Assembly: GCA_026931725.1 (NCBI GenBank)
Contig: JAIXLE010000059.1
Span: 1 to 64,000, forward strand
DNA from: Bacteroidales bacterium
Lineage (GTDB): Bacteria > Planctomycetota > Planctomycetia > Gemmatales > Gemmataceae
DNA: 64,000 nucleotides
Reading direction: 5' to 3'
In this document: one piece after another, positions 32,593-47,145 of the stretch
Numbering within the stretch: position 1 is the first letter of the stretch
Layout of the letters: every line of letters starts with the position of its first letter
Program-made: the position numbers and the translations under genes
The notes under the pieces: generated by a model
Told to the model about the DNA's origin: nothing
The model's input: the letters and a program-made list of their open reading frames with translations, nothing else
The model's database searches: none

Positions 32593-33015
32593 ATGTTGCG
32601 TTCTCCGGTACGCCGCTCCGTTTCGCATCGCCGCTCGGCTTTTACGCTGTTGGAAGTGTTGGTCGTCGTGGCGATCCTCGTCATTCTGGCGGGGGTGTCG
32701 AGTATTTATGTCTTCCGCTACCTCGAAGATGCCAAGCGCGACAAGGCCACTATTGAGGCAAAGCAGCTCGAAAAGACCCTCAAAGCCTGGATGCTCAAAA
32801 ATGAAGGCACGGTGCCGCAAAGCCTGAACGTGCTGATCGGCGGGGATGGCCGTGCCCCGATGATCGAAGGGGGGTCCGCAGCCCTGATCGGCCCGTGGGG
32901 CAACCCGTATCAGGTCGAAATGAACCAGAACTCTGACGGCGGCGATGTGCAGTTCCGCGTCTACACCCAAGACGGTAACGGGCAGCCGGTGCCTGATCCG
33001 ACCACGGTACGCTAA
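32593..33015 (+). CDS. gspG: Type II secretion major pseudopilin GspG
   Basis: The 140-residue protein has a prepilin signal with the class III cut before phenylalanine (RRSAFTLLEVLVVVAILVIL) and the conserved glutamate. The globular part shows the GspG pattern: KTLKAWMLKNEGTVPQSLNV and ALIGPWGNPYQVEMNQ. The C-terminal GGDVQFRVYTQDG fits the calcium-loop region of GspG, although the exact acidic residues are not fully canonical. It is first of a run in the order G-H-I-J-K-L-M-D. Nineteen bases separate it from gspH. Confidence 0.88.
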   Translation: MLRSPVRRSVSHRRSAFTLLEVLVVVAILVILAGVSSIYVFRYLEDAKRDKATIEAKQLEKTLKAWMLKNEGTVPQSLNVLIGGDGRAPMIEGGSAALIGPWGNPYQVEMNQNSDGGDVQFRVYTQDGNGQPVPDPTTVR

Positions 33016-33034
33016 CTCCGCTCGGAGGCCAACG

Positions 33035-33592
33035 ATGCCACGCTCGACTCGTTTGCCCCGCCCTGGGGTGACGCTGCTGGAACTGATCGCCGTGATGGCG
33101 GTGTTGGTGATCCTCGGAGCCATCCTGCTGCCGACACTCAACGCTTTTCGTGGTGATACCCGGCTGAAGGCGGCGACCGATACCTTTGCAGGCCGAGTCG
33201 CCGAAGGCCGGGTGCGGGCGATGGAAAGCGGGCAGCCGTATCAACTCAGCATTCACCAGGATGGCCGACAACTCCGCCTGGCTCCGTTCGCGCTCGATCT
33301 GGTGGATGTGGGGAGCGAGAACGCCGCGGTGCTAGAAATGTTGGAAGACACGTTCCCGCCGACCGTGATGGGGATGCTCGTGAGCAACTCGGAAAGCGTG
33401 GTTCCCACGGCGGAATCCGGCTGGCTGACTGTGGCGACCTTTCAATCGGACGGAAGCTGCAAGGAAGACAACGTCCTGCTGGAGTTCAGCGAACCCGGCT
33501 CGCGGTCGCTGTTCGTGCATCTCCGCGGGTTGACCGGCGTGGTTTCGGTGCATTCGGCGGATTCGGCGGATTCCCTGGGATACCGGCAATGA
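33035..33592 (+). CDS. gspH: Type II secretion minor pseudopilin GspH
   Basis: The 185-residue protein starts with a prepilin-like segment (LPRPGVTLLELIAVMAVLVI) with the glutamate at position +5. The following RLKAATDTFAGRVAEGRVRA and LSIHQDGRQLRLAP match GspH/FimT-type minor pseudopilins, which sit in the tip complex of the secretion pseudopilus. A CGGAGG ribosome-binding site precedes the ATG. The gene overlaps gspI by four bases (ATGA at 33589), so translation is probably coupled. Confidence 0.85.
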   Translation: MPRSTRLPRPGVTLLELIAVMAVLVILGAILLPTLNAFRGDTRLKAATDTFAGRVAEGRVRAMESGQPYQLSIHQDGRQLRLAPFALDLVDVGSENAAVLEMLEDTFPPTVMGMLVSNSESVVPTAESGWLTVATFQSDGSCKEDNVLLEFSEPGSRSLFVHLRGLTGVVSVHSADSADSLGYRQ

Positions 33593-34062
33593 CACGTTCG
33601 GCCCGAACCCGTGCGGGCATGTCGCTGATCGAGGTGATCCTCGCATTAGCGATCATGATGATGGCTCTGGTCGCCATCGGTAAACTCGTGGATGTCGGGC
33701 TCGATCGCTCGCTGGATGCCCAGTTGCAGACACGCGGCACCTTGCTGGCCGAGTCCAAACTGGCGGAAGTGGAAGCCGGGGCCGTTGCCCTGCAAGGGGG
33801 CAACGGCACATTTGACGAAGCTCCCGAATGGTCCTGGTCTGTGGAATCCACCCCGTCCGGGCCAGCGAACTTGTATCAGGTCACGGTACGGGTGTCTCGC
33901 TCAACGCCAGGCCGACCATTTGAAGTGGCCATGACCCAACTCATACTCGATCCCGCTGTGATTGGCTCCGCCGCGCAGGCTGAAGTGCCGACCACAACCA
34001 CGGATGGCTCTACGACCACAACCGGCTCCTCGACCAGCACCACAGGGGGAACAACGCCGTGA
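33589..34062 (+). CDS. gspI: Type II secretion minor pseudopilin GspI
   Basis: The 157-residue protein has a prepilin-type N-terminus (RAGMSLIEVILALAIMMMAL) with glutamate +5 and a conserved pattern LLAESKLAEVEAG typical of GspI. The C-terminal 25 residues are a Thr/Ser/Gly tail (TTTTDGSTTTTGSSTSTTGG), absent from the usual family. It starts within the gspH stop (ATGA) and ends overlapping the GTG of gspJ. This tight packing indicates an operon. Confidence 0.85.
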   Translation: MTRSARTRAGMSLIEVILALAIMMMALVAIGKLVDVGLDRSLDAQLQTRGTLLAESKLAEVEAGAVALQGGNGTFDEAPEWSWSVESTPSGPANLYQVTVRVSRSTPGRPFEVAMTQLILDPAVIGSAAQAEVPTTTTDGSTTTTGSSTSTTGGTTP

Positions 34063-35036
34063 CCCGGAATGCTCAATCCCGTGCCGGGTTCACACTTCTG
34101 GAAGTCCTGCTCGCCAGCGCCATCGCGGTGCTGCTGCTCGGGTCGCTCTACTTCGCCCTGGATCTGACCCTCGGTCAGACACAAGTGGGCCGTGAGTCTG
34201 TGGCCGCGGATAATCTCGCGCGGGGCATCTTCCAACGGATGACCCGCGATCTGACGATGAGCCTCGGCCCGCTGCCGCCCAAATCGGGGGGGAATGCCGC
34301 AGGCGTGATCCCCACGGATTCCGGCGATTCCACAGGCTCGGCGATCGGAACCACCACGGGAACGATCAGTTCCACAACCGGGGCCGTCAGCACCACCACG
34401 GGAACGATCAGTTCGTCAACGGGAACAGATACCACCACGAATAGTCCAGGTGCCGAAGCCCTGGCAGCCGATGTTCCCTTTCAGGCGGGGGTGATCGGGT
34501 CGGAGAGCCAGTTGACCGTGTTCCTTAGCCGGGTGCCCGATTCTTTGGCGAATCTGAACCCGTCCTACGATCAGGCCGACCTGGATGTGCAAAGTCCCAG
34601 CGGACTACGACGGGTGACCTATTGGCTGGCGGCGGGCGGGACAGGCGGATTATGCCGACAGGTCCGGGTCTGGGTAACGGCAGATGGTGTTCGGGATAGC
34701 GTCGATCCCGACCTGACCAGCGAAGCCAGTGATAGGATTGCCGAGTCGGTCGTGAGCTTGATGTTCGAGTATTTCGATGGCTCCACTTGGGCGACCTCCT
34801 GGGATGGTTCCGCGGTTGGCCCGGATGGGGTCACACCGACCGGCCCGCCGCGAGCAATCCGCGTAACCCTCGGGATCGCGGTTCCCGAACGCGGTGGCGG
34901 CACCCGGAATCGGATGGCCGTTCATGTGTTCCCCGTCCGGGCGGCTCCAGGCTTGAGCGTCCAGGAATTCGTGGACCTGAACGCCACAAGTAGCGACTCC
35001 AGCAGCACCACAACTACGGGAGGAACGACACCATGA
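34059..35036 (+). CDS. gspJ: Type II secretion minor pseudopilin GspJ
   Basis: The 325-residue protein starts with GTG and RAGFTLLEVLLASAIAVLLL, a pseudopilin N-terminus, then GQTQVGRESVAADNLARGIF and QRMTRDLTM, a GspJ-like helix. Between residues about 90 and 130 lies a Ser/Thr/Gly-rich stretch (TTTGTISSTTGAVSTTTGTI), and a further SSTTTTGG tail. The C-terminal domain has a family-like VSLMFEYFDGSTWATSWDG and PRAIRVTLGI. Its 325 residues are much longer than the usual about 200-240, mostly because of these insertions. It overlaps gspI and gspK by four bases each. Confidence 0.82.
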   Translation: MTRNAQSRAGFTLLEVLLASAIAVLLLGSLYFALDLTLGQTQVGRESVAADNLARGIFQRMTRDLTMSLGPLPPKSGGNAAGVIPTDSGDSTGSAIGTTTGTISSTTGAVSTTTGTISSSTGTDTTTNSPGAEALAADVPFQAGVIGSESQLTVFLSRVPDSLANLNPSYDQADLDVQSPSGLRRVTYWLAAGGTGGLCRQVRVWVTADGVRDSVDPDLTSEASDRIAESVVSLMFEYFDGSTWATSWDGSAVGPDGVTPTGPPRAIRVTLGIAVPERGGGTRNRMAVHVFPVRAAPGLSVQEFVDLNATSSDSSSTTTTGGTTP

Positions 35037-36773
35037 TTGCGTCCTTCCGGTGCCCCGGTTCCCCGCGGCCCGCCGCCAGCGATCGCCCTGGTTACGCCTT
35101 GTTGGCGGTGTTGATCGTCGTGGCGGTGCTGTCCCTGGTGGCCTATCAGTTCACCGATGCGATGACTTCGGAGTACGTCGCCGCGTCACGGACGACCGAT
35201 GTGGTCCAATCGCGGTTGAACGCGATTTCTGGCATCTCCTACGCTGCCGCCCTGCTCACCGACGCGGGGAGTACGGGTATCAATCCGTATGAAGATGCGT
35301 CCCTGGCGAATGTGCCGGTGGCCGCTTCCGAGAACCCCCGTAAAGATGCCCGGTTCGCCCTGGTTGCGGTTGGCGGGGATGCCACATCGGGGTTCACCGT
35401 CCGCAACGGAGTCACCGACGAAGGTGGCAAAATCAACCTCAACGCGCTGATTCAACTCGATTCAACCGGGCAACTCCTGCACGATGCCTTGATGGCGTTG
35501 CCGAACATGACCGAGGACATCGCCGATGCCATCGTCGACTGGGTGGACCCGGACGACACCGAACGCCCGGCGGGCGCGGAATCGGGCTACTATCTCGGAT
35601 TGGAACAGCCGTATCGTGCCAAGAACGGCCCGATGAACACGCTCGACGAACTGTTGTTGGTTCGCGGTGTCACTTGGCAGCTACTCTACGGCAACGACCG
35701 CAACCGGAACGGCATCGCCGATGATACCCCTGGTGGTTCCCAGACACTCGATCGCGGCTGGGCGGAGTACCTTACCGTTTACGGTCGGGAACTCAACTCC
35801 ACCAGTAGCGGCGAACCCCGGTTGTATCTCGGCACCAGTGACGATCTGGTGACTTTTCACTCGAATCTCGTCACGGCGATCGGTCAGGAAATGGCCGATT
35901 ACATCCTGGCCTACAAGTTGTTCGATGTTTCCCAAGTTCCCACGAGTTCTGCGGGTCCATCTGCGAGTTCTTCCTCCCAGTCGGTTCGGGGAGTGGGGCC
36001 TGTCCACGGCCGTGCAATCGGCTCTGGCGCAATCGCCTCAAAACAAACGACAACTCCCCTCGATTTTATCCCTGGTGGGGACACAGGTGACGTTGCCGAA
36101 CCCCACGAGTGCCGGTTCCGGGAATTCAAGTTCCGGTTCGAGTGGCTCCAGTAATGCCAGCAGCAATAGTACGGCCTCTTCCGCGACGGCTTCACCGTCG
36201 ATCGTGATTCCGTGCCCTTTGAATGATCCGGCTCGACTTGCGGAAGAACTCCCCGTGCTGTTGGATGCCACCACTGGCCGCCAAGAATATGAGATGGTCC
36301 CCCGTATCAATGTCATGACGGCACCGCGGGAAGTGTTAATGGCACTGACGGCGATCGCGCAATCCGCCGCACAAGCGTCTGCTCAGTCGACTTCGCAAAC
36401 GTCCACGTCTACGACGATGACCACCACGAACAGTAGCCAGACGGGGAGTTCATCAACCAGCCTGGACGAAACCGATGTGGATGCGATTCTGGCCGCGCGA
36501 GACAGTCTCTCCCCCACGGACCCGGACGTACAATCTGGTGCCTGGGTGGTCACACAGGCCAACGTCACCCCGAAAAAGTTCGCCCAACTGGAGCGGTACA
36601 TCACCAGTCGTTCGATGGTCTACCGGGTGCAGTCCATCGGCTATTTCAGCCAGAACGGCCCAGTTGCACGGGTGGAAGCCGTGATCGACACGCATCTGGG
36701 CACGCCCCGTATCCTGTATTACCGTGATCTCACCGACCTCGACATTCCGCGTGGCTTCACCCCGCCCCGCTAG
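35033..36773 (+). pseudogene. gspK: Type II secretion tip pseudopilin GspK, frameshifted
   Basis: The first part reads RPGYALLAVLIVVAVLSLVA, then GGKINLNALIQ and ADAIVDWVDPDDTERPAGAE, then GLEQPYRAKNGPMNTLDELL, the core of GspK with its helix-hairpin-helix-like domain. In this frame it drifts into low complexity and stops at 36154. The +1 frame then continues from about 35985 (FGEWGLSTAVQSALAQSP) through TGRQEYEMVPRINVMTAPRE and a second domain to 36773, the missing GspK end. Removing one base near 35970-35990 restores about 579 residues. The C-terminal part has Ser/Gly/Asn runs. Whether the base is real decides if the secretion operon works. Confidence 0.8.
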
Positions 36774-36799
36774 TGCCGACTTCCCCTGGAGTTGTTGCC

Positions 36800-38365
36800 G
36801 TGTCTCGATTCCTGGCCATCACAGTCGATCATCACCGCCTGTTCGTGGTCGCGGGGACGGCACGTTCACACAGTGTCAAGATCGAAAAGACACTCGCATG
36901 GATGGAAGACGTGCCCCCGCTGACCCCCGCAACCGCGGCTACGCTCGGGGCACAATTGAAAGAACGCCTTCAGGCCGCTGGCATCTCCCCGGCACCGATT
37001 CTGTTGGGGATCGGCCGGGAACGGGTCATTCTGAAAGAGTTGCGCTACCCGCCCGTGCCGCCAGCCGAGGAACCGAACATCGTCCGCTTTCAGGCACTCA
37101 AAGAAGTGACCGAAGCCGCGGGCGAGGTGGTCTTCGATTTTGTGCCGCACACGACCCAGGCCACCGCCACGGAACGACGATCAACGGCTGTGGTCGTGAG
37201 TCGAGATCTGGTGCAAGCGGCTCAGGAACTCGCGGCCACGCTGGGGGTGAAGTTGCTCGGCATCACGCCCGTGGCGTTCGTGGCCGGATTCCTGGTGGAT
37301 CGCGCCCGGCAAGCCGGTATCCTGCCGACCGAGACGACCAACGCAGTCCCCGGCACGGTGGGTCTGCTGATGCTGGATGCTCACGGGGGAGAATTCATCC
37401 TCGTTCACAATCATGATGTCTTGCTCGCCCGGAGCATCGCGGCCCCGGTGGTCGCATCGGAAAAGGCTCTGATCGCGGAAATCAAGCGGAATCTGGCGGT
37501 GTTCGCGGTTCAGCATCCCCGTTCTCCCGTATCGGCCCTGCTGCTGACCGCTGGCTGGGACAGGGGATATTCGGACGCATTGGCGGAGGCCTTGTCCGTT
37601 CCAGTGTTCGACTACGATCCGCTGACATCCGGGGAAACGGGCCTGCCCTCCACGCTCCACGGGGCATTGGCCGGGCCGCTGGGCTTGTTGGCCGCACGAG
37701 CCGACAGTGCGACATTGCCGATTAACTTCGTCGAACCCCGGCAACCGAAGCCCGAAAAAGATCCGTTCCAACGGCAACTCCTCTTCGCGGCCATCGTGGC
37801 CTTCCTCCTCCTCTTCACCGGAATCGGCTTCGGCTGGATGGAGGTGAGCGCGGCATCCCGAAAACTGCAATCGCTGCAAATCGCCAAGTTGGACCTCGAA
37901 GCGGAGAAAGCCCAGCTGGAATCCGAGGCCAAACGGGTCCGATTTGTCGAAGATTGGGAACAGCGTTCGCCGATCTGGCTCGACGAATTGTACGACCTGG
38001 CCGACCGTTTTGAACGCTTGGAAACGACCCGGATCCTGAGCATGACCGCCGCGACACTCCAACCGGATAAAGCCGGGAAACGGCCCGCGTCCGGGCGGCT
38101 CGAAATCAAACTGGGCACCCGCGACCCCGAGGCCGTGTCCGACCTGGTCACGGCGATCAACCGCGACAACACCACGAAAGACAAGCATTACGTCAGCGTG
38201 CAAAAAACGACCGGCGGCCTGGCCAGCGGTAACACGCCGTTCAATCAGTTGTTCACCATCACGATTCTGGTGAATCGCCGCGAACCGGAAAAGTACACGC
38301 GGAAGCTGGAGGTTCCGCTGATTCCACCATCATCCGTGAAACACACGCCGGATGATCGACCGTAA
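36800..38365 (+). CDS. PilM/GspL-like protein fused to a PilN-like part
   Basis: The 521-residue protein begins VSRFLAITVDHHRLFVVAG, an actin-like ATPase-fold start. A GspL/PilM-like region follows (LLGIGRERVILKELRYPP; LLLTAGWDRGYSD) over residues 1-320. A membrane helix lies at about residues 328-350 (LLFAAIVAFLLLFTGIGFGW), then a coiled coil (KLQSLQIAKLDLEAEKAQLE) and a small C-terminal domain like PilN. In this class it couples the secretion ATPase to the inner-membrane platform. The GTG at 36800 has TGGAG upstream; the GTG at 36773 overlaps the gspK stop. Gene symbol withheld because it is a hybrid of the GspL and PilM-PilN types. Confidence 0.75.
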   Translation: MSRFLAITVDHHRLFVVAGTARSHSVKIEKTLAWMEDVPPLTPATAATLGAQLKERLQAAGISPAPILLGIGRERVILKELRYPPVPPAEEPNIVRFQALKEVTEAAGEVVFDFVPHTTQATATERRSTAVVVSRDLVQAAQELAATLGVKLLGITPVAFVAGFLVDRARQAGILPTETTNAVPGTVGLLMLDAHGGEFILVHNHDVLLARSIAAPVVASEKALIAEIKRNLAVFAVQHPRSPVSALLLTAGWDRGYSDALAEALSVPVFDYDPLTSGETGLPSTLHGALAGPLGLLAARADSATLPINFVEPRQPKPEKDPFQRQLLFAAIVAFLLLFTGIGFGWMEVSAASRKLQSLQIAKLDLEAEKAQLESEAKRVRFVEDWEQRSPIWLDELYDLADRFERLETTRILSMTAATLQPDKAGKRPASGRLEIKLGTRDPEAVSDLVTAINRDNTTKDKHYVSVQKTTGGLASGNTPFNQLFTITILVNRREPEKYTRKLEVPLIPPSSVKHTPDDRP

Positions 38366-38428: not shown

Positions 38429-39763
38429 GTGTCCGCCCGCGAACGACTCTTGGCGATCATCCTGCTGGGGCTCATCTTCGTCGCCGTCGGTGGCTTCGTG
38501 GGCTATCTGGTCTTCGTTGGACCGATTCAATCCAAGAATCGGCAAGCGCGATCATTGGAAAACGAGATGACCAAGCTGGAGGAGGATGTCGACGCGCTCC
38601 GCCAGGATGCCCGCCGATTCCCCCTGGTGAAAGCCCGCAGCCTGCCCGCTGATGCGACCCTGGCCCGTGAAGAATACAAGGAAGCCCTGGCGATCCTCCT
38701 GCGGGATGCCCACGCCCCGGCGGGCTTCACCATCATTCCACGCTCCGCCGACACCCGTGGTGTGCCGAACCTCGCCCCCAAAAAGCCCGCCTACAACCGG
38801 CTCGTGTTCGACATCAATCTCGACAAGGTTGATTTGCCGATGCTGACGACCTTCCTGGAAAACTTCCACCGCCTCAACTTGGCGCACCGGATTACAGGCT
38901 TCACGATCAAACGGAATGACGACACTCGCGGTGCTGGCACGAATCGCAAAGACCTCAAAGTCACGCTGACGGCGGAGTCCATCATCATGGACGGTGCCGA
39001 GAAACGGCGGACGCTGCTGTCCATTCCCCCCGTGCTGGCGACGATCGGTGGTGGGCTCGGCTATCAGGCTATCGCGCAAACCGCGGAAGCGGGACGCGGT
39101 CTGATCGGCCAGGGAGAACCCGTCGTGCTGTCTCCCGCCGATCGCAAATATGCGCATCTCGCGGTTCGGGATTTCTTTCACGGCCCACTGCCGCCCCCGA
39201 AGCCACCTGAGCCACCCGCCGTCGCCGAGGCACCCCCGCCGCCCCCGAAGCCGAAAGAGGATGTCTCACCCTATATTCGGCTTGTGGGTCTGACAGTTCG
39301 CTCGAATGGAACATCGCTCGCGGATGTCTGGGATACATTCAACAATGTGAAATACGAAGTCGAAGCTGGGATTGACGGAACGCGCGTGCAAAAGTATGTG
39401 CGTTCCACCGATGGGGCAAGAACGCCTGACCCGGAGTATCGTTCGGGTGGGGTGATTCGCCTCAATCCGCCGGATTCCAGTACGAACCGGAGCTTGCGAC
39501 TGATCGCCGTGAAAGGGGATGGTTTGTATCTGGCCGAAGCCGCGACCGGGTCACGCTCGGAATCGCGGGTGCCCACCGAAGCGATGGCAGCCGTGGTCGG
39601 AGGAGTGATTCCTTGGACCGAAACGCCGACGCTGTATTTCTGGAAGGTGGGCCGCTCTCTGAAGGAATTGGTGCCGTTACCCGCGACCGAGACACAGGAA
39701 ATTTTGCGACAGGCGGAACAGGCCGTGGAAGCCGAACGCCGCTTGGGCGTGGAACTCAACTGA
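38429..39763 (+). CDS. PilO/GspM-like protein with a PilP/GspC-like C-terminal part
   Basis: The 444-residue protein starts with GTG; a membrane helix lies near residues 8-30 (LAIILLGLIFVAVGGFVGYL), then a coiled coil (LENEMTKLEEDVDALRQDAR) and a PilO-like alpha/beta domain (YNRLVFDINLDKVDLPMLTT, FLENFHRLNLAHRITGF). A proline-rich linker (about residues 250-275, PPPKPPEPPAVAEAPPPPP) leads to a C-terminal region (SPYIRLVGLTVRSNGTSLAD). That region resembles the PilP/GspC-type domain that contacts the secretin. This would explain why no separate gspC is seen, but the similarity is weak. Confidence 0.65.
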   Translation: MSARERLLAIILLGLIFVAVGGFVGYLVFVGPIQSKNRQARSLENEMTKLEEDVDALRQDARRFPLVKARSLPADATLAREEYKEALAILLRDAHAPAGFTIIPRSADTRGVPNLAPKKPAYNRLVFDINLDKVDLPMLTTFLENFHRLNLAHRITGFTIKRNDDTRGAGTNRKDLKVTLTAESIIMDGAEKRRTLLSIPPVLATIGGGLGYQAIAQTAEAGRGLIGQGEPVVLSPADRKYAHLAVRDFFHGPLPPPKPPEPPAVAEAPPPPPKPKEDVSPYIRLVGLTVRSNGTSLADVWDTFNNVKYEVEAGIDGTRVQKYVRSTDGARTPDPEYRSGGVIRLNPPDSSTNRSLRLIAVKGDGLYLAEAATGSRSESRVPTEAMAAVVGGVIPWTETPTLYFWKVGRSLKELVPLPATETQEILRQAEQAVEAERRLGVELN

Positions 39764-40009
39764 CCCGGCATTCGACAGGAATTCGGTACAAAACCGCGGA
39801 AAAATCCGGCCAGAGCATGACCCGGCAACCATCATCACCGGGTACGATGAAAGTAACCTGAGTCGCGGCCAGTTGCGATTGCGTTTGGAAAGCCCTATCG
39901 GTATTCGCCCACATTACAGACCACACTGCGAATCGGCGGCGTTCGGGGGAACGTGTCGCCGGTTCAAACCGGATCGGCGGAGCCCGATTTCGGAACTTGG
40001 GGGGGAGTC

Positions 40010-43000
40010 ATGAGTCTGTCCCGTCCTGGAATGAGTTTGGCATTGCGGAGCAGTCGCCGCCGCCGACGCTGGTTGCCCGTGCGACTCGCCGCGTGGTTGG
40101 GCGTGGGAACGGTCGCTGTGGTCTTGCCCGTGACCCTGTTGGCCCAGGCTCCGCAACCGTCTCCGTTGAAACCCGGTGTCCCGGTACTGCGTCCCGATGT
40201 CCCATCGACTCCCACGGTGCCCCCGCAGGAGGCCGCGGAAAAAACACTCGCCATTACCTTCGATAACAAGCCGTGGTCCGATGTCATCGACTGGTTCGGT
40301 CGGGAAAGCGGGCTCGTCTGGGTCGGTTCCGTCAAGGTGCCCGGCAGTTTCACCATCAAGGCGGAACCGGGTCGACAATTCACGATCCCTCAGATTGTCG
40401 ACCTGCTGAACGAACAATTATTGTTGAAGAAGTTCATTCTCGTGCGGCGGGGAATGACCTTCACCATCCTGCCTTCGGATGAGAAGCTCGACCCGACGCT
40501 CTTGCCGCGGATCGACTTGAAGGAACTGCCAAAACGCGGACGTTCCGAAATCGTCCAGGTCATCGTGCCACTGAAGACCTTAGTGGTTGAGGACACGCTG
40601 CCCGAAATCAAACTGATGCTCTCCCCGTTTGGGGACGTGACCCCGCTGTCCAAAGCCAACCAGATCATCCTGCAGGACACCGCCGGGAACATTGGTCGCA
40701 TCCTCAGCACGCTCAAAGTCGTCGAGAATGAAAGTGAAGGGGCGGACTCCCTCACATTCGCCTGCCGGTACATCCGGGCCACCAAGGCGGCTGATGTCCT
40801 GCGCGGATTGCTGACCGATTCGAGTACCCAAGTCACGACCAATCAGCCGAACAGCACCCCGCCCGGCAGCTTCCCGCAACAGGGGTTCGACCCCCGGATG
40901 TTCGACCGGGACCGAGGACGTTCCAGCAACAGTAACAGCGGCGGCCCCCGGTTCCGCACGGTGCAAATCACCGTCGATGAACGGACCAATTCCGTCCTCA
41001 TCACCGGCCCGGCGGACAAGATCAGCCTGGCGAAAAAGATCCTCGGGGAACTCGACGTCGCCAAAGAGGGACAACTCCCGATCGTGGTCGGCCCGCCCGA
41101 ATTGCGGACCTATCCTGTCCCCACGGGCACCGCGGAAACCGTGGCCAAGACATTGCAGGAAGCCTACACGAAGACCTCGCCGTCGGTGCGGGTGGTTCCT
41201 GTCCCCAATAGCAACCAGATCATGGTCTACGCCACACCCGGCGAGCATCTGGAAATCCTCGATCAACTCAAGGGCACCGAAGGGGTCAAGGTCACGGCGA
41301 CGACCACGGCTCTGATCCCACTCACGGTCCTCGACGCGACCGAGACGGCGGCCACGCTGAGCAAGATTTATCCTTCCAGTTCCGGTGGCCCCACGATCGA
41401 AGCTCAGACCAGCGGTCCCGTGACGGGGTTGCTCGTGCGCGGGACACCGGAGCAGATTACGGACATCAAAGGGGCCATCCAGGCGCTCGGCGAATCCGGT
41501 GGGATCACGGGAGGTGGGACCAGCGGATTGCGGGTCATCACGGTCAACAAGGGGAACGCGGCTGTCCTGGCGGAAGCCCTCGCGGAAATGATGCGGAAGA
41601 TGGGCAAGAACCCCGTTCGCATCGTGGCTCCGGGAGCCACGCCGAGTCCGCCCTCAACGGCCCCGGCTCCGCAACCGTTGCCCCCGACCGACACCCGCCC
41701 CAAACGAGTGCCGATCCCTGGGGACATGTCCCAGAATCAGCCGATCCATGTCCCCGAGACACGCCGGGTGTCCGCGCAGTTGGTGGACCCGGACAAACCC
41801 GTCCCAGAACAAAAGCCGATCACGATTACCGTGGCTGGGGACAAACTTATCATCTCCGGCGGCGACCCGGAATCTGTGGCCATGCTGTCAGTGGCTCGCA
41901 TCTACACGCAAGAGCCCAAGGGAGAGGACCAATTTGAGGTGATCCGCCTGAAGAACGCCAGCGCTGCCGAGGCCGCGAAGGTCATCAGCGAAGTGTTCAA
42001 CGGCCCGCCCCAACCGCAACAGCAACAACCACAACAAGGTGGACGCGGCGGCTTTGGTGGCGGTGGTGGTGGTGGACGCTTTGCGGAAATGGCCTCCCGA
42101 TTTTTGGGACAAACCGCCGGGGCCGGAGCGACCACCCCGAACAACCCGGCGACGGGACGGGTCCGTGTGGTCGCCGAGCCGAGCAGCAACTCGCTCATCG
42201 TCGTCAAGGCTTCGCCGTTGGATCTGTTCATGATCCGCAAACTGCTGGCGAACGCGATTGAGACAAGCCCGGAAGGGAACGCCGTCGTCCAGCGGACCTA
42301 CATCATCGGCCCGCTGAAATACGCCAATGCCACGGAAGTCGGCGCGACCATCGAGGACGTGTACGCGAACGTCATCGGCTTGTCCCCATCTGAATCGGCG
42401 CGGGCATCTCGGTTCAACCGTAACCCACAACCGCAGCAAAAGTCGCCGTCCCTAACTGTCGGTGTGGACAACCGCAGCAATAGCCTTGTGGTCATGTGTA
42501 CGGAGACGATGTTCAAGGACGTGGCCGATCTGGTCGAACACCTGGACTCGGCCGCGAAGGACAATACCCAGGTTGTCAAACTTGTCCCCGTTGTCGGGAT
42601 TGACCCGGCGATTGTCCAACAGACGATAGACGCGATTCAGGGCCGCGTGACCCAAACCAACCAACCCGGTGGCTTCGGTGGCTTTGGTGGGAACCGAGGG
42701 GGCTTTGGTGGTGGGGGCTTCGGTGGTGGGGGCTTTGGTGGGAACCGAGGGGGCTTTGGCGGTGGCGGCTTTAACCCCGGTGGTGGCTTCAACCCTGGTG
42801 GGGGCAATCGCGGGGGAGGATTCGGCGGCAATCGGGGCAATCGGAGATCATCGCTCGATGGACCGGGGACACCGGGGGAGAACCCCCGAAATTTTGACGA
42901 CCGGGGAATGGATGCCCCTTCCGCCGTCACAACCGCTGTCCTCTACGACCCCAACGCGGACACCCGCCCGCTGGGTCCATTCTTCCAGTACGCCCCGGTA

Positions 43001-46000
43001 GGACTCCCGGAATCGGAACTCAAACTGGTCCAAGCGTCTCAACCGTCGCAGCCGGCTCCGTCGCCAGCAACCGGGGACACATCGGATGTCCCATCCCCAC
43101 GCGGGACCGTGACGGTCTATCCGCTCAATGAGATCGGCGGTGTCGTCATCCGGGCCGCGGACCAACGCGACTTGGAACTGACCCTGGCGATTATTCAGGA
43201 ACTCCAGAAACGGGCGGCGGGGGCCGAGCCCAAGCTCGAAATCGTACCGTTGAAGAACGCCGATCCAGGCAGCATCACGGCGAAGTTGAACACAGTCTTC
43301 GCGCGGGTCCAGGTGGGACTCGGAGGGAACGTCGTCCCACAAGCGGCCCGGAACCCAGCGAATGCCCTGGTGCCGGGACTCTCGGCGACGACGGTCCAGA
43401 ATGTCTTCATTCTGCCGTTGCCCCGGTTTCAGTCGCTGCTGGTCGTCGCGCCGGAAGCGCGGTTCGCGGATGTCCTCAAAGAGATCGAGCGATTCGATCA
43501 GCCCAACTCGGACGCGAACAAACCGCACGCCTTCCAGTTGAAGAAGGCCTCCGCGCAGATTGTCGCGTCGCAAATCCAGCAGTTCTGGAACCAGCGTTAC
43601 CCGGATGAACCGCTGACCGCGAATCAGTTCCGGGTCACGTTCGATCTGGCGAGTAACTCGGTCTTCGTCCAGGCGAGCCCGGCGGACCTGAAGGATGTCA
43701 CGGAACTGGTCGAGATGCTGGACAGTGCCGCGTCCAAAGCGGTCAACGAGGTCCGGGTTTTCCGTCTCCAAAATGCCTTCGCGGATGAGTTGGCCGCGGT
43801 CATCATTCAGTCGCTGACGGCGAACGTCGTGAATCCCATTGCCCAGGCCAGTCAGACAGGGATTCCCGCGAGTGGAGGAGCCTTCGGCGGTGGGGCCACA
43901 GGGACACTCACGGGCGGCCTCGGCGGCGGCCTCGGTGGGACAACGGGGACATCGAGCCTGGGCGGCGGCCTCGGAGGGCGACCGGGCGGCGGTGGCCTGG
44001 GAGGAGGGGGATTTGGTGGGGGTGGTTTGGGAGGAGGACTCGGCGGCGGTGGCTTGGGAGGAGGACTCGGTGGGGGGGGTTTGGGAGGAGGACTGGGCGG
44101 GGGTGGACTCGGCGGGACCGGGACCGTCACCAGCGTCGGCGGAATGGCCGGGGGCGGGGTGGTCACGAAATCCAACACTCTCCGATTTTTCTCCACCAAA
44201 GATGGTCAGGTGGTCGAAAGCGGATTCCTGACTGATGTCCACATTATCCCGAATGCTCGCATCAATGCTCTCATCGTGGCCGCGCCGGCAACAACGATGC
44301 GGATGATCGAGACGATGATCGAAAACCTCGATGTCGTCGCGGCGGCTCGGTCGTATGTGAATATCTTCACCCTGACCAAAGCGGACGCGATCCAGACCGC
44401 GACGCTCTTGCAGCAACTCTTCACCAGCCAGCAAACGACAGGCGGTGGTGTGGGAGGCGGTGTCGGGGCTGCGGGCGGATTTGGGGGAGCGGGTGGCGGC
44501 ATCGGCGGCGGGGTCGGCGGGATCAACACCTTTACCCAGTCCGGGACCGTGCGACCATTGCTCACGCTGACCGGAGCCCCGACCGATGGCGCGTCTCTCA
44601 TCGACCTGCGCATTTCCGTGGATGATCGGACCAACAGCATCCTGGTCGCCGGTTCGCAAAATGACTTGGATACGATTCGTGCCGTCATTGCCCGGTTGGA
44701 AGCGGCGGATGTCGAACAGCGGTACACCGGCGTTTACAAACTGCGGAACGCCGCGGCCGCAGATGTCGCTACCAGTTTGCAAAACTTCATCACGCAATCG
44801 CTGACCGTGCTGAACGGTAGCCAGTACCTGACCGCGTATCAGCAGGTCCAGCGGAACATTGTCGTGGTGCCGGAACCCGTGAGCAATACGTTGCTCATCT
44901 CGGCCACACCGCAGTATTTCTCAGAAATCAAACGGATGATCGAGAAGATCGACGCCCAACCGTCGCAGGTGGTGATTCAGGTTCTGATCGCGGAAGTGCA
45001 ACTCTCGAATACGGAGGAATTCGGCATCGAAGCCGGGATCCAGAGCCCGATCCTGTTCACGCGGAGCCTGCTGCCAGCGGCGGGGACGTTCGCCAACCCG
45101 GATGGTTCACTCACGGGGCAGGTGGGCAGCCCCGGTTTCAACTTCAACTCGACCAGCCCGATGGCGAACGCCAACGCGGCCAGTTCCGGGACGGTCGGTT
45201 TCCAGGGGATCAACAACCTGGGGCTGGGGCGTTCGTCGAGCCTGGTCGGTGTCGGCGGCTTTGTCTTCTCGGCGGCGGCGGATTCGTTCAACCTGCTGAT
45301 TCGTGCCCTGAAGCAGCAAGGTCGGGTCGAAATCCTCAGCCGACCCCAAATCCAGGTGGCCGACAGCCAGACCGGGTTCGTCCAGGTGGGTCAGGACTAC
45401 CCGACGTTGACGCAGTCGATTCTCTCCGGGGTGGGGACCGCGCAGCAGAGTATCCAGTACCGGCCCATCGGGATCACCTTGCGGGTGACACCGCGTATCA
45501 GCCCAGACGGCAAGGTGCTGATGCGTGTCGAACCGCAGATCAGCACGCCGACCCCGCAGCCGGTGTCTCTGGGGCAAGGATTCACCGCTCCGGCGTTCAA
45601 CGTGCAAACCGTGCAGACCACGGTTTCCGCAGCCGACGGGGAAACGATCATCCTCGGAGGATTGATTACGAAGACCGATTCCCGCACCGAAACCGGGATT
45701 CCGTTCCTGAAAGACATTCCCTACGCCGGGGCACTGTTCCGCTACCGTCAACAGCAGATCACCAAGCGAGAACTGCTCGTCATCATGACACCGCACATTG
45801 TCTCCTGCGACGTGGACGCGGCCCGGATACTGGCGGAGGAATCCCGACGCATCTCGTGGGTGATGGGGGATGTCGCGGCGTTGCACGGGCACGGGATGGA
45901 AGTGATTGGCCCAGCTTCCGAAGGGGCAATGCCGGCCCCGGTGCCGAACCCGGCCGCGAACCCCAGTGGTGTGCCTGCCGGTCTGATGGGGTTGCCACCC

Positions 46001-46486
46001 GTGATGGGGATTCCGCCCAGCACGAAGGATGCCGCCCCCGATCATGGTTATGCGTTCCCCACGCCGGTTTCCGGGATGCCCGGCGCGGCCCCGATGTCTC
46101 CACAGGGTGCATCTCCGGTGCCGAGTCTGTCGCTGCCGTTGCCTCAGCCAACTCCGGTTCCGACTCCGGTTCCGACTCCGATACCCGCGCCGGGCGTGGT
46201 CCCCGGTGGCCCGATGTCGGCGGCTCCGCAACCGATTCAACCGAGTGTCACCAGTGCGGCCCAGCCGGTGGCCCCGGTGCTGCCTGTGGGCGGTCAGTGG
46301 AACATCATGACCACGCCGCCAAGTGCCCCGGTGGTCCCGGTATCCGCGATGGTTCCGGCTCAGCCGGGAAGCCCGTCGCGAGGGTATGAAATGTTGCCCG
46401 CACCGACGTTGCCCGCCGCAACGCAACCCGCCAAGTCCACCAAGTCCGCCAAGGAGGGCCGGAAATGGAGCGTCTTCGGAAATTGA
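40010..46486 (+). CDS. Giant secretin GspD/PilQ-like protein with about 13 N1-like repeats
   Basis: The 2158-residue protein has a signal peptide after a run of arginines (AAWLGVGTVAVVLPVTLLAQ). An N0-like domain follows (about residues 80-157, LAITFDNKPWSDVIDWFGRE), then roughly 13 N1-like repeats (about residues 165-1655), each a 'VxxLxxA...LxxxL' helix with a 'VDxRTNSxLxxG'-type strand (VDERTNSVLITGPADKI, VDNRSNSLVVMCTETMF, VDDRTNSILVAGSQNDL). Gly-rich loops interrupt repeats at about 884-950, 1284-1383 and 1477-1503. The secretin core lies at about 1657-1928: VLIAEVQLSNTEEFGIE, QGRVEILSRPQIQVADSQTG, VSAADGETIILGGLITK. A Pro-rich tail of about 230 residues ends the protein. Usual GspD is about 650 residues. 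Confidence 0.92.
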   Translation: MSLSRPGMSLALRSSRRRRRWLPVRLAAWLGVGTVAVVLPVTLLAQAPQPSPLKPGVPVLRPDVPSTPTVPPQEAAEKTLAITFDNKPWSDVIDWFGRESGLVWVGSVKVPGSFTIKAEPGRQFTIPQIVDLLNEQLLLKKFILVRRGMTFTILPSDEKLDPTLLPRIDLKELPKRGRSEIVQVIVPLKTLVVEDTLPEIKLMLSPFGDVTPLSKANQIILQDTAGNIGRILSTLKVVENESEGADSLTFACRYIRATKAADVLRGLLTDSSTQVTTNQPNSTPPGSFPQQGFDPRMFDRDRGRSSNSNSGGPRFRTVQITVDERTNSVLITGPADKISLAKKILGELDVAKEGQLPIVVGPPELRTYPVPTGTAETVAKTLQEAYTKTSPSVRVVPVPNSNQIMVYATPGEHLEILDQLKGTEGVKVTATTTALIPLTVLDATETAATLSKIYPSSSGGPTIEAQTSGPVTGLLVRGTPEQITDIKGAIQALGESGGITGGGTSGLRVITVNKGNAAVLAEALAEMMRKMGKNPVRIVAPGATPSPPSTAPAPQPLPPTDTRPKRVPIPGDMSQNQPIHVPETRRVSAQLVDPDKPVPEQKPITITVAGDKLIISGGDPESVAMLSVARIYTQEPKGEDQFEVIRLKNASAAEAAKVISEVFNGPPQPQQQQPQQGGRGGFGGGGGGGRFAEMASRFLGQTAGAGATTPNNPATGRVRVVAEPSSNSLIVVKASPLDLFMIRKLLANAIETSPEGNAVVQRTYIIGPLKYANATEVGATIEDVYANVIGLSPSESARASRFNRNPQPQQKSPSLTVGVDNRSNSLVVMCTETMFKDVADLVEHLDSAAKDNTQVVKLVPVVGIDPAIVQQTIDAIQGRVTQTNQPGGFGGFGGNRGGFGGGGFGGGGFGGNRGGFGGGGFNPGGGFNPGGGNRGGGFGGNRGNRRSSLDGPGTPGENPRNFDDRGMDAPSAVTTAVLYDPNADTRPLGPFFQYAPVGLPESELKLVQASQPSQPAPSPATGDTSDVPSPRGTVTVYPLNEIGGVVIRAADQRDLELTLAIIQELQKRAAGAEPKLEIVPLKNADPGSITAKLNTVFARVQVGLGGNVVPQAARNPANALVPGLSATTVQNVFILPLPRFQSLLVVAPEARFADVLKEIERFDQPNSDANKPHAFQLKKASAQIVASQIQQFWNQRYPDEPLTANQFRVTFDLASNSVFVQASPADLKDVTELVEMLDSAASKAVNEVRVFRLQNAFADELAAVIIQSLTANVVNPIAQASQTGIPASGGAFGGGATGTLTGGLGGGLGGTTGTSSLGGGLGGRPGGGGLGGGGFGGGGLGGGLGGGGLGGGLGGGGLGGGLGGGGLGGTGTVTSVGGMAGGGVVTKSNTLRFFSTKDGQVVESGFLTDVHIIPNARINALIVAAPATTMRMIETMIENLDVVAAARSYVNIFTLTKADAIQTATLLQQLFTSQQTTGGGVGGGVGAAGGFGGAGGGIGGGVGGINTFTQSGTVRPLLTLTGAPTDGASLIDLRISVDDRTNSILVAGSQNDLDTIRAVIARLEAADVEQRYTGVYKLRNAAAADVATSLQNFITQSLTVLNGSQYLTAYQQVQRNIVVVPEPVSNTLLISATPQYFSEIKRMIEKIDAQPSQVVIQVLIAEVQLSNTEEFGIEAGIQSPILFTRSLLPAAGTFANPDGSLTGQVGSPGFNFNSTSPMANANAASSGTVGFQGINNLGLGRSSSLVGVGGFVFSAAADSFNLLIRALKQQGRVEILSRPQIQVADSQTGFVQVGQDYPTLTQSILSGVGTAQQSIQYRPIGITLRVTPRISPDGKVLMRVEPQISTPTPQPVSLGQGFTAPAFNVQTVQTTVSAADGETIILGGLITKTDSRTETGIPFLKDIPYAGALFRYRQQQITKRELLVIMTPHIVSCDVDAARILAEESRRISWVMGDVAALHGHGMEVIGPASEGAMPAPVPNPAANPSGVPAGLMGLPPVMGIPPSTKDAAPDHGYAFPTPVSGMPGAAPMSPQGASPVPSLSLPLPQPTPVPTPVPTPIPAPGVVPGGPMSAAPQPIQPSVTSAAQPVAPVLPVGGQWNIMTTPPSAPVVPVSAMVPAQPGSPSRGYEMLPAPTLPAATQPAKSTKSAKEGRKWSVFGN
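42669..42860 (+). repeat. Gly-rich imperfect tandem repeats in the secretin gene
   Basis: The DNA encodes GGFGG/NRGGFGGGG-type units. A 29-base direct repeat (GGCTTTGGTGGGAACCGAGG and onward) occurs at 42680 and 42731, with a 51-base period. These codon-biased G-rich tracts mark a flexible loop inside an N1-like repeat and are a likely site for slippage. Confidence 0.7.
43872..44140 (+). repeat. Gly/Leu-rich tandem repeats in the secretin gene
   Basis: Three near-identical 27-base units encode a 9-residue LGGGLGGGG-type repeat at 44027-44053, 44054-44080 and 44081-44107, flanked by related GGGLGG segments. They lie in a second flexible insert before the next N1-like strand. Confidence 0.7.
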
Positions 46487-47145
46487 TCCGCCGGGGTGGG
46501 GGGGTGTTCAGTCTGGTGATGCTGGCGAGCGGTTGCGTCACCACGACCACCGACAACACACTGCCCCCTCGGTCACCAGAACCGGCGAAACCGGCGAAGT
46601 CCACGTCACTCAGCGTGCCGAGCCTGTCCTCGCTGACAACGATGGTGGAAGGCCCGAAAGCCATCCCCGTGACCGAGATGGCGGCGGTCTGGTCGAATCG
46701 GATCGCCTACTTGCCGGACCCGACCCGCAACGGTCGACCGGGAGCCGGGCTGGCGGGGCAAGTCATCCTGCTGGGGGCCGAACTCCAGTTCGCTCCGGCG
46801 AGCGGGACACTGACGGTCGATGTATTCGACGAAACCCCTCGGCAACCGGGTGGGCCGCAAGCCTTGGTGCCGGAACGCTGGCAGTTCACGGCGGCGGATC
46901 TGAAGAAGCTCGAAGCCTCGGATGAACGCTTTGGCCGGAGCTACACGCTGTTTCTGCCGTGGCTGGCGTATCGCCCCGATGTGACCCGTGTGCGGATCAT
47001 GGCCCGGTATGACCCAGCCGATGGCGGTCACCCGCTGTTCGCGCCAGCTTCGACCTTGACAATCGACACCACGCCGCAGAACGGTTCTTCGGTTTGGTCT
47101 GGCGGTACTCAGGTGGTTCCCGCGGTCACGCTGGGGGGACGATGA
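46465..47145 (+). CDS. Putative lipoprotein at the end of the secretion operon
   Basis: The 226-residue protein starts inside the secretin gene, overlapping by 22 bases. The N-terminus has arginines, then GVFSLVMLASGCVTTTTD, a likely lipobox (LASGC) with the lipidated cysteine at residue 24. A Thr/Pro/Ser linker follows, then a soluble beta-rich part (ITLL-like strands such as GQVILLGAELQFAPASGTLT and FLPWLAYRPDVTRVRIMARY). It may act as a pilotin-like partner of the secretin, inferred only from position and lipid signal. No named family was recognised. Confidence 0.7.
   Translation: MERLRKLIRRGGGVFSLVMLASGCVTTTTDNTLPPRSPEPAKPAKSTSLSVPSLSSLTTMVEGPKAIPVTEMAAVWSNRIAYLPDPTRNGRPGAGLAGQVILLGAELQFAPASGTLTVDVFDETPRQPGGPQALVPERWQFTAADLKKLEASDERFGRSYTLFLPWLAYRPDVTRVRIMARYDPADGGHPLFAPASTLTIDTTPQNGSSVWSGGTQVVPAVTLGGR

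Follow-up and report, generated by a model that had tools for sequence, protein, structure and literature searches.

A giant GspD secretin with thirteen N1-type domains in the planctomycete family Gemmataceae

Here, we identify a giant secretin in a 64,000-nucleotide stretch of planctomycete DNA (contig JAIXLE010000059.1 of GenBank assembly GCA_026931725.1, positions 1 to 64,000; hereafter the window). A single open reading frame at 40010-46486 on the forward strand encodes a 2,158-residue protein, which is a true GspD secretin of type II secretion with one N0 domain, 13 N1-type domains and one pore. The GspD standard is three N1-type domains (N1, N2 and N3); because counterparts of all three are present among the 13, the protein represents an expansion rather than a loss, and is a variant rather than a standard GspD. 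We think it likely that in this type II secretion system (T2SS) the ~14 rings of the secretin form a continuous tube from outer to inner membrane with loops in its lumen, and that a two-protein version of the same tube exists elsewhere.

A variant GspD with 13 N1-type domains

The giant secretin scores 481.8 bits against the NCBIfam GspD model TIGR02517 (cut-off 351.35), whereas its scores against the PilQ model (220 bits) and the SctC model (145 bits) fall under their own cut-offs. Solved GspD structures match it twice in phmmer searches, at the N-terminus over N0-N1 and the start of N2 and at the C-terminus over N2-N3-pore, and the surplus repeats sit between these two parts. The Pfam N0 model finds no match on the protein; its N0 domain is instead identified by phmmer and Foldseek matches to the N0-N1-N2 region of XcpQ. 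A Secretin_N domain search, as proposed in a preliminary description of this DNA, returns ten separate Pfam stretches rather than just two or three N1 domains, and the one pore claimed there is confirmed by a single Secretin domain at residues 1766-1931 (PF00263, E = 1.2e-45). An alternative GTG start at 39953 would make the protein 19 residues longer. Its layout, all on the + strand, is as follows.

40010-40147 (+): likely signal peptide (residues 1-46), read from the translation; Arg-rich start, hydrophobic core, ending ...LLAQA
40235-40489 (+): N0 domain (76-160); phmmer to XcpQ N0-N1-N2 structures (query 85-269), AlphaFold2 model, whole-segment Foldseek match to XcpQ N012 (E = 9e-12)
40541-40729 (+): N1-type repeat 1 (178-240), no insert, canonical N1; segmentation, phmmer, profile, AlphaFold2; weak in leave-one-out
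40745-41068 (+): repeat 2 (246-353), 42-residue loop insert; best Pfam Secretin_N stretch; AlphaFold2, leave-one-out
41093-41284 (+): repeat 3 (362-425), no insert; profile, AlphaFold2, leave-one-out
41300-41500 (+): repeat 4 (431-497), no insert; same three lines of evidence as repeat 3
41522-41920 (+): repeat 5 (505-637), 66-residue Pro-rich insert; same evidence
41924-42268 (+): repeat 6 (639-753), 47-residue Gly-rich insert; same evidence
42287-42559 (+): repeat 7 (760-850), 22-residue insert; same evidence
42560-43222 (+): repeat 8 (851-1071), interrupted by a ~150-residue Gly/Phe-rich insert, the weakest repeat; leave-one-out, collinearity
43226-43510 (+): repeat 9 (1073-1167), 27-residue insert; profile, AlphaFold2, leave-one-out
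43520-43735 (+): repeat 10 (1171-1242), 6-residue loop only; same evidence as repeat 9
43745-44341 (+): repeat 11 (1246-1444), 134-residue Gly/Leu-rich insert; same evidence
44348-44713 (+): repeat 12 (1447-1568), 54-residue insert, matches GspD N2; phmmer, AlphaFold2, leave-one-out
44717-44968 (+): repeat 13 (1570-1653), 15-residue loop, matches GspD N3 and its loop; phmmer, AlphaFold2, leave-one-out
44948-45814 (+): secretin pore domain (1647-1935); PF00263, TIGR02517, Foldseek to PulD (E = 4e-28)
45857-46483 (+): Pro-rich C-terminal tail (1950-2158), from the translation; no family match in the tail

Repeat borders were set by hand segmentation, which gave 13 copies. A profile built on these copies returns 13 matches in the giant secretin and likewise in most same-family relatives, exactly three N1-type domains in the Klebsiella PulD control, and none in 200 shuffles of the giant secretin. 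Since this profile was trained on the repeats themselves, a leave-one-position-out test was run, in which 11 positions of the giant secretin are recovered at E ≤ 4e-5. In AlphaFold2 models, repeats 1-7 and 9-13 adopt a beta-alpha-beta-beta-alpha fold, and Foldseek searches with the models return the secretin N-domains of XcpQ/GspD, and PulD; repeat 1, whose model has this fold, also matches the canonical N1 of GspD/XcpQ by phmmer. The profile, the leave-one-out test, the models and the controls thus indicate that a count of ~13 is right, with repeat 8 as the weakest copy. The about 13 repeats of the preliminary description are borne out by all but the controls in that list and by 28 relatives, and its view of them as N1-like by the profile matches and the modelled fold.

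Conservation within Gemmataceae

The closest named relatives of the giant secretin come from Gemmataceae, including Gemmata sp. IIL30 and Limnoglobus roseus, in agreement with the planctomycete host proposed earlier. Complete Gemmataceae orthologues hold all 13 positions, with the same 13 found in 28 other sequences. Across the resulting 29 sequences, repeats are 44% identical within positions versus 19% between positions, and the nearest repeat in other species bears the same position number in 376 of 377 tests; inside the giant secretin itself, the repeats average just 19% identity to one another. This position-specific identity across species indicates that the 13-repeat layout is old and stable in the family. 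Complete chromosomes carry the gene too (G008, Limnoglobus roseus), and two loci from another family of the order have 11 repeats by the original profile. The giant secretin of Zavarzinella formosa DSM 19928 appears in its draft assembly as a gene broken into several frames (L120, 4684-15287), and a record titled Candidatus Kuenenia stuttgartiensis (L093) holds a typical 13-repeat Gemmataceae secretin, so that its title looks wrong.

Loop inserts lie inside the domains

Nine repeats of the giant secretin carry loop inserts, eight of them 22-149 residues long. All of them separate helix 1 from strand 2 inside a repeat, as seen across the 29 Gemmataceae sequences; nearly all of these have inserts at repeats 2, 6, 7, 8, 9, 11, 12 and 13 and most at repeat 5, while repeats 1, 3, 4 and 10 lack them, the exceptions being an insert at repeat 3 in a single sequence and short loops at repeats 4 and 10. 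Many inserts are Gly-, Gln- and Pro-rich and low in charge, and they are disordered in the AlphaFold2 models. When repeat 13 is aligned to GspD N3, the loop takes the same position. The disordered N3 loop of f1 pIV is directed at the pore centre (PMC8563730), and PulD has constriction sites in N3 (PMC6882859). Because the inserts share the position of the N3 loop, and the pIV and PulD loops are luminal, lumen loops are a better reading than the inter-domain hinges that the preliminary description had suggested for the Gly-rich inserts. We reject a hinge role, since the inserts are intra-domain.

Operon and genome setting

The giant secretin gene is the last core gene of a G-H-I-J-K-L-M-D operon, several members of which were called by a weak score together with their position.

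32593-33015 (+): GspG-like major pseudopilin, 140 residues; TIGR01710 E = 3e-9, under cut-off; PF08334 just above cut-off
32945-33592 (+): GspH-like pseudopilin; weak TIGR01708 match, N_methyl
33589-34062 (+): GspI-like pseudopilin; TIGR01707 E = 2e-6, under cut-off
34059-35036 (+): GspJ-like pseudopilin; weak TIGR01711 match
35033-36773 (+): GspK-like pseudopilin, frame broken between 35925 and 36154; NF037980 E = 1e-25, T2SSK_1st
36773-38365 (+): GspL/PilM-like protein; weak PilM match alone, operon position
38429-39763 (+): GspM-like protein with C-terminal extension; weak GspM_XpsM match, kept in 18 relatives
46465-47145 (+): lipoprotein with lipobox LASGC, candidate pilotin; overlap of 22 bases between its start and the secretin stop; homologues immediately after the secretin in 10 further loci of Gemmataceae

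The break in gspK may be either an assembly error or a real frameshift; in three relatives the gene is intact as one frame of 565-602 residues. The extension of the GspM-like protein is conserved and follows a Pro-rich linker; it may possibly replace GspC, and PDB sequences give no support for a GspC-like fold in it. The lipoprotein at 46465-47145 may serve as pilotin of the giant secretin. GspE and GspF are encoded side by side on another contig (C256) of the genome, which also contains separate PilB/PilC/PilT-like and Tad loci, another secretin (contig C73) adjoining Tad-like genes for an ATPase and a platform, and a third secretin with a weak STN match. At L035 (8332-13026), the same genome encodes a second unusual secretin, which is 1,565 residues long, has a C-terminal pore and matches STN weakly.

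Giant and split secretins across Planctomycetota

A secretin match occurs in 291 of 294 sampled Planctomycetota genomes. By an iterated profile, single frames of 4,200-5,073 residues in several families outside class Planctomycetia hold 43-52 N1 domains, and the shorter long-stack secretins of other classes hold 24-37; some other families have a GspD of ordinary size. Loci L071, L072, L073, L074, L075 and L076 each encode a secretin of 4,600-5,073 residues with ~50 N1 domains in one frame, which in L071 comes after GspK/L-like genes, and several secretins of 30 to 50 repeats are directly trailed by lipoproteins without detectable similarity. In a pore-domain tree, which is unrooted, has a long PulD branch and has the large secretins in only half of its columns, long-stack secretins separate from those with 3-5 repeats (100/98).

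Within the class, one relative carries ~30 N1 domains in a single 3,240-residue protein. Most other Planctomycetia examined instead encode a pore protein with ~5-9 N1 domains and no detected N0, plus a separate poreless protein; the latter carries N0, and its N1 domains usually number about seven, with 15 and 22 as two exceptions. Matches to a poreless-protein profile occur in 46 of the 47 class genomes searched, with long matching frames in all but three. Residues 25-886 of the giant secretin are collinear with the poreless proteins and residues ~1010-2000 with the pore proteins, which places the split point in repeat 8. In each of the ten poreless proteins inspected, the C-terminus consists of a first N1 half plus a tail, and some pore proteins start with a second N1 half, most clearly those of L060 and L058. 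In a fair share of the 51 tabulated pore-protein rows, the copy before the last five is seen only by its second half, and in others it looks complete; an N1 domain shared between the two proteins is thus a hypothesis and not a rule. One Pirellulaceae locus (L132, 717-12697) encodes a 2,726-residue poreless protein with ~22 N1 domains, divergent beside the pore gene; the pair totals ~29 N1 domains, nearly as many as the single protein of L051, which has 30. Among the matches listed from plasmid records, those to the giant secretin span at most ~20% of the query.

A proposed tube across the periplasm

In characterised secretins, the N domains form stacked rings. We propose that giant secretin subunits would assemble into a ring oligomer as in other secretins, with the 12-15-fold arrangement in the outer membrane expected of a GspD, and that their periplasmic part would form a stack of ~14 rings, a tube leading from the outer-membrane pore across a wide periplasm to the T2SS platform in the inner membrane. 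In rings 2, 5-9 and 11-13, disordered loops would project into the lumen and could act there as serial constrictions or as a soft plug, limiting leakage during the passage of folded cargo and the pseudopilus. Other families of Planctomycetia would probably build this tube from two polypeptides, with repeat 8 as the meeting point. PulD has four N rings and a length of 20 nm (PMC6882859), and pIV measures 9.6 nm from N3 to the surface (PMC8563730), a difference that gives ~3.5 nm per added ring and an estimated ~55 nm for the giant secretin; at 2.5 nm per ring the estimate would be 42 nm, so that the tube would measure, very roughly, 40-55 nm. Planctomycetes have an enlarged periplasm (PMC5394234), and a long stack would fit the precedent of Thermus PilQ, with six rings in a wide periplasm (PMC5745081).

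Several observations weigh against this proposal or the domain count on which it builds. Repeat 8 scores in the leave-one-out test only once its 150-residue insert is removed (7e-5), and repeat 1 is not significant there in the giant secretin (E = 9.6), falling below 1e-3 in eight of 29 orthologues. The luminal course of the loops is inferred by analogy with N3. GspC is the usual partner of N0, and its model PF11356 finds nothing in the source genome, which is ~94% complete, although a divergent partner may have escaped this model. The AlphaFold2 models cover all repeats except 8, and both have a low predicted template modelling score (0.32 and 0.35), so that they do not fix the relative placement of the domains. 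With their spatial order thus left free, the repeats could be N1-type and still not all belong to one coaxial stack: a canonical subset would form the channel, and the rest would fold back, attach to peptidoglycan or the inner membrane, or build an external scaffold. XcpQ N-domains are indeed capable of other assemblies, as hexamers of dimers (PMC9239104, PMC6532946), and a poreless partner could contact its pore protein in several ways. We nonetheless consider such an arrangement quite unlikely, given that every repeat has a ring-forming fold with mostly short linkers, that repeat count and position identity are fixed throughout Gemmataceae, and that the half domain ending all inspected poreless proteins, with the other half opening several pore proteins, suggests end-to-end joining.

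Another possibility, which we take seriously yet find doubtful, is that the secretin serves a surface fibre or uptake, in the manner of type IV pili or crateriform structures, rather than type II protein secretion. The PilM-like protein and the weak pseudopilin scores leave room for it, and crateriform structures join outer and inner membrane, bear 12-nm dextran-binding fibres, number ~104 per cell and have no assigned protein (PMC5394234). The GspD model, however, is above its cut-off and the PilQ model below, the operon includes a GspK-type pseudopilin, and the PilB/PilC/PilT-like and Tad loci of the genome are separate. We see virtually no chance that the gene is an assembly artefact, a fusion in one genome or a recent, functionless tandem duplication: the source assembly is fragmented and the neighbouring gspK frame broken, but conservation of the 13 positions throughout Gemmataceae, low identity among the repeats and the presence of the gene in complete chromosomes lead us to reject this explanation.

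Crateriform structures and significance

Crateriform structures are a planctomycete hallmark. In Planctopirus and Gemmata they are fibre-bearing complexes of the outer membrane that connect to the inner membrane (PMC5394234). They would be compatible with a long secretin tube, which is a candidate for their core. A broader version of this idea, which we offer as a speculation with the odds against it, holds that multi-ring secretins form the crateriform core as tubes of ~14-50 rings pinning inner to outer membrane, that their Gly/Phe/Leu-rich lumen loops make up a soft permeability mesh, and that many families assemble the tube from two proteins sharing a split N1 domain. Gemmata also has nuclear pore-like structures, which are pores of internal membranes, show apparent eight-fold symmetry and have an outer ring of 33.5 nm, and which their authors distinguish from crateriform structures (PMC5287468); with these properties, an identity with the giant secretin is not supported. 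A literature search, with most subscription papers outside its scope, found no published account of giant or multi-ring secretins, or of GspD with a T2SS in planctomycetes; one paper contains both 'crateriform' and the string 'secretin', without connecting them.

Multi-ring secretins are concrete candidates for components of crateriform structures. Moreover, Planctomycetota provide a natural series from 3 to ~50 N1 domains within one phylum, which makes the idea of ring number as a ruler for periplasm width testable, and the two-gene form leads to the prediction that two polypeptides can join into one secretin tube.

Comparison with known systems

With crateriform structures, the proposed tube shares the linkage of outer to inner membrane; we found no published link between these structures and any secretin, and their identity with the tube is a hypothesis. 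The giant secretin resembles GspD, PulD and XcpQ in its score against the GspD model, its N0 domain, N1-type domains and pore, its pseudopilin operon and the loop in its last N domain, but differs from them in having 13 N1-type domains rather than three, in the inserts that nine of these carry, and in that GspC was not detected. The PilQ of Thermus thermophilus has six rings (N0-N5), an unusual number proposed to cross a wide periplasm (PMC5745081), and like the giant secretin it thus extends beyond the usual number of N rings. However, it is a protein of 757 residues that acts in type IV pili and DNA uptake, whereas the giant secretin belongs to a T2SS operon and is expected to form ~14 rings. 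Finally, the split and giant secretins of other Planctomycetota share homologous halves and the same repeat type with the giant secretin, but are encoded by two genes in most other Planctomycetia families and reach ~24-52 N1 domains in one protein in several families outside that class.
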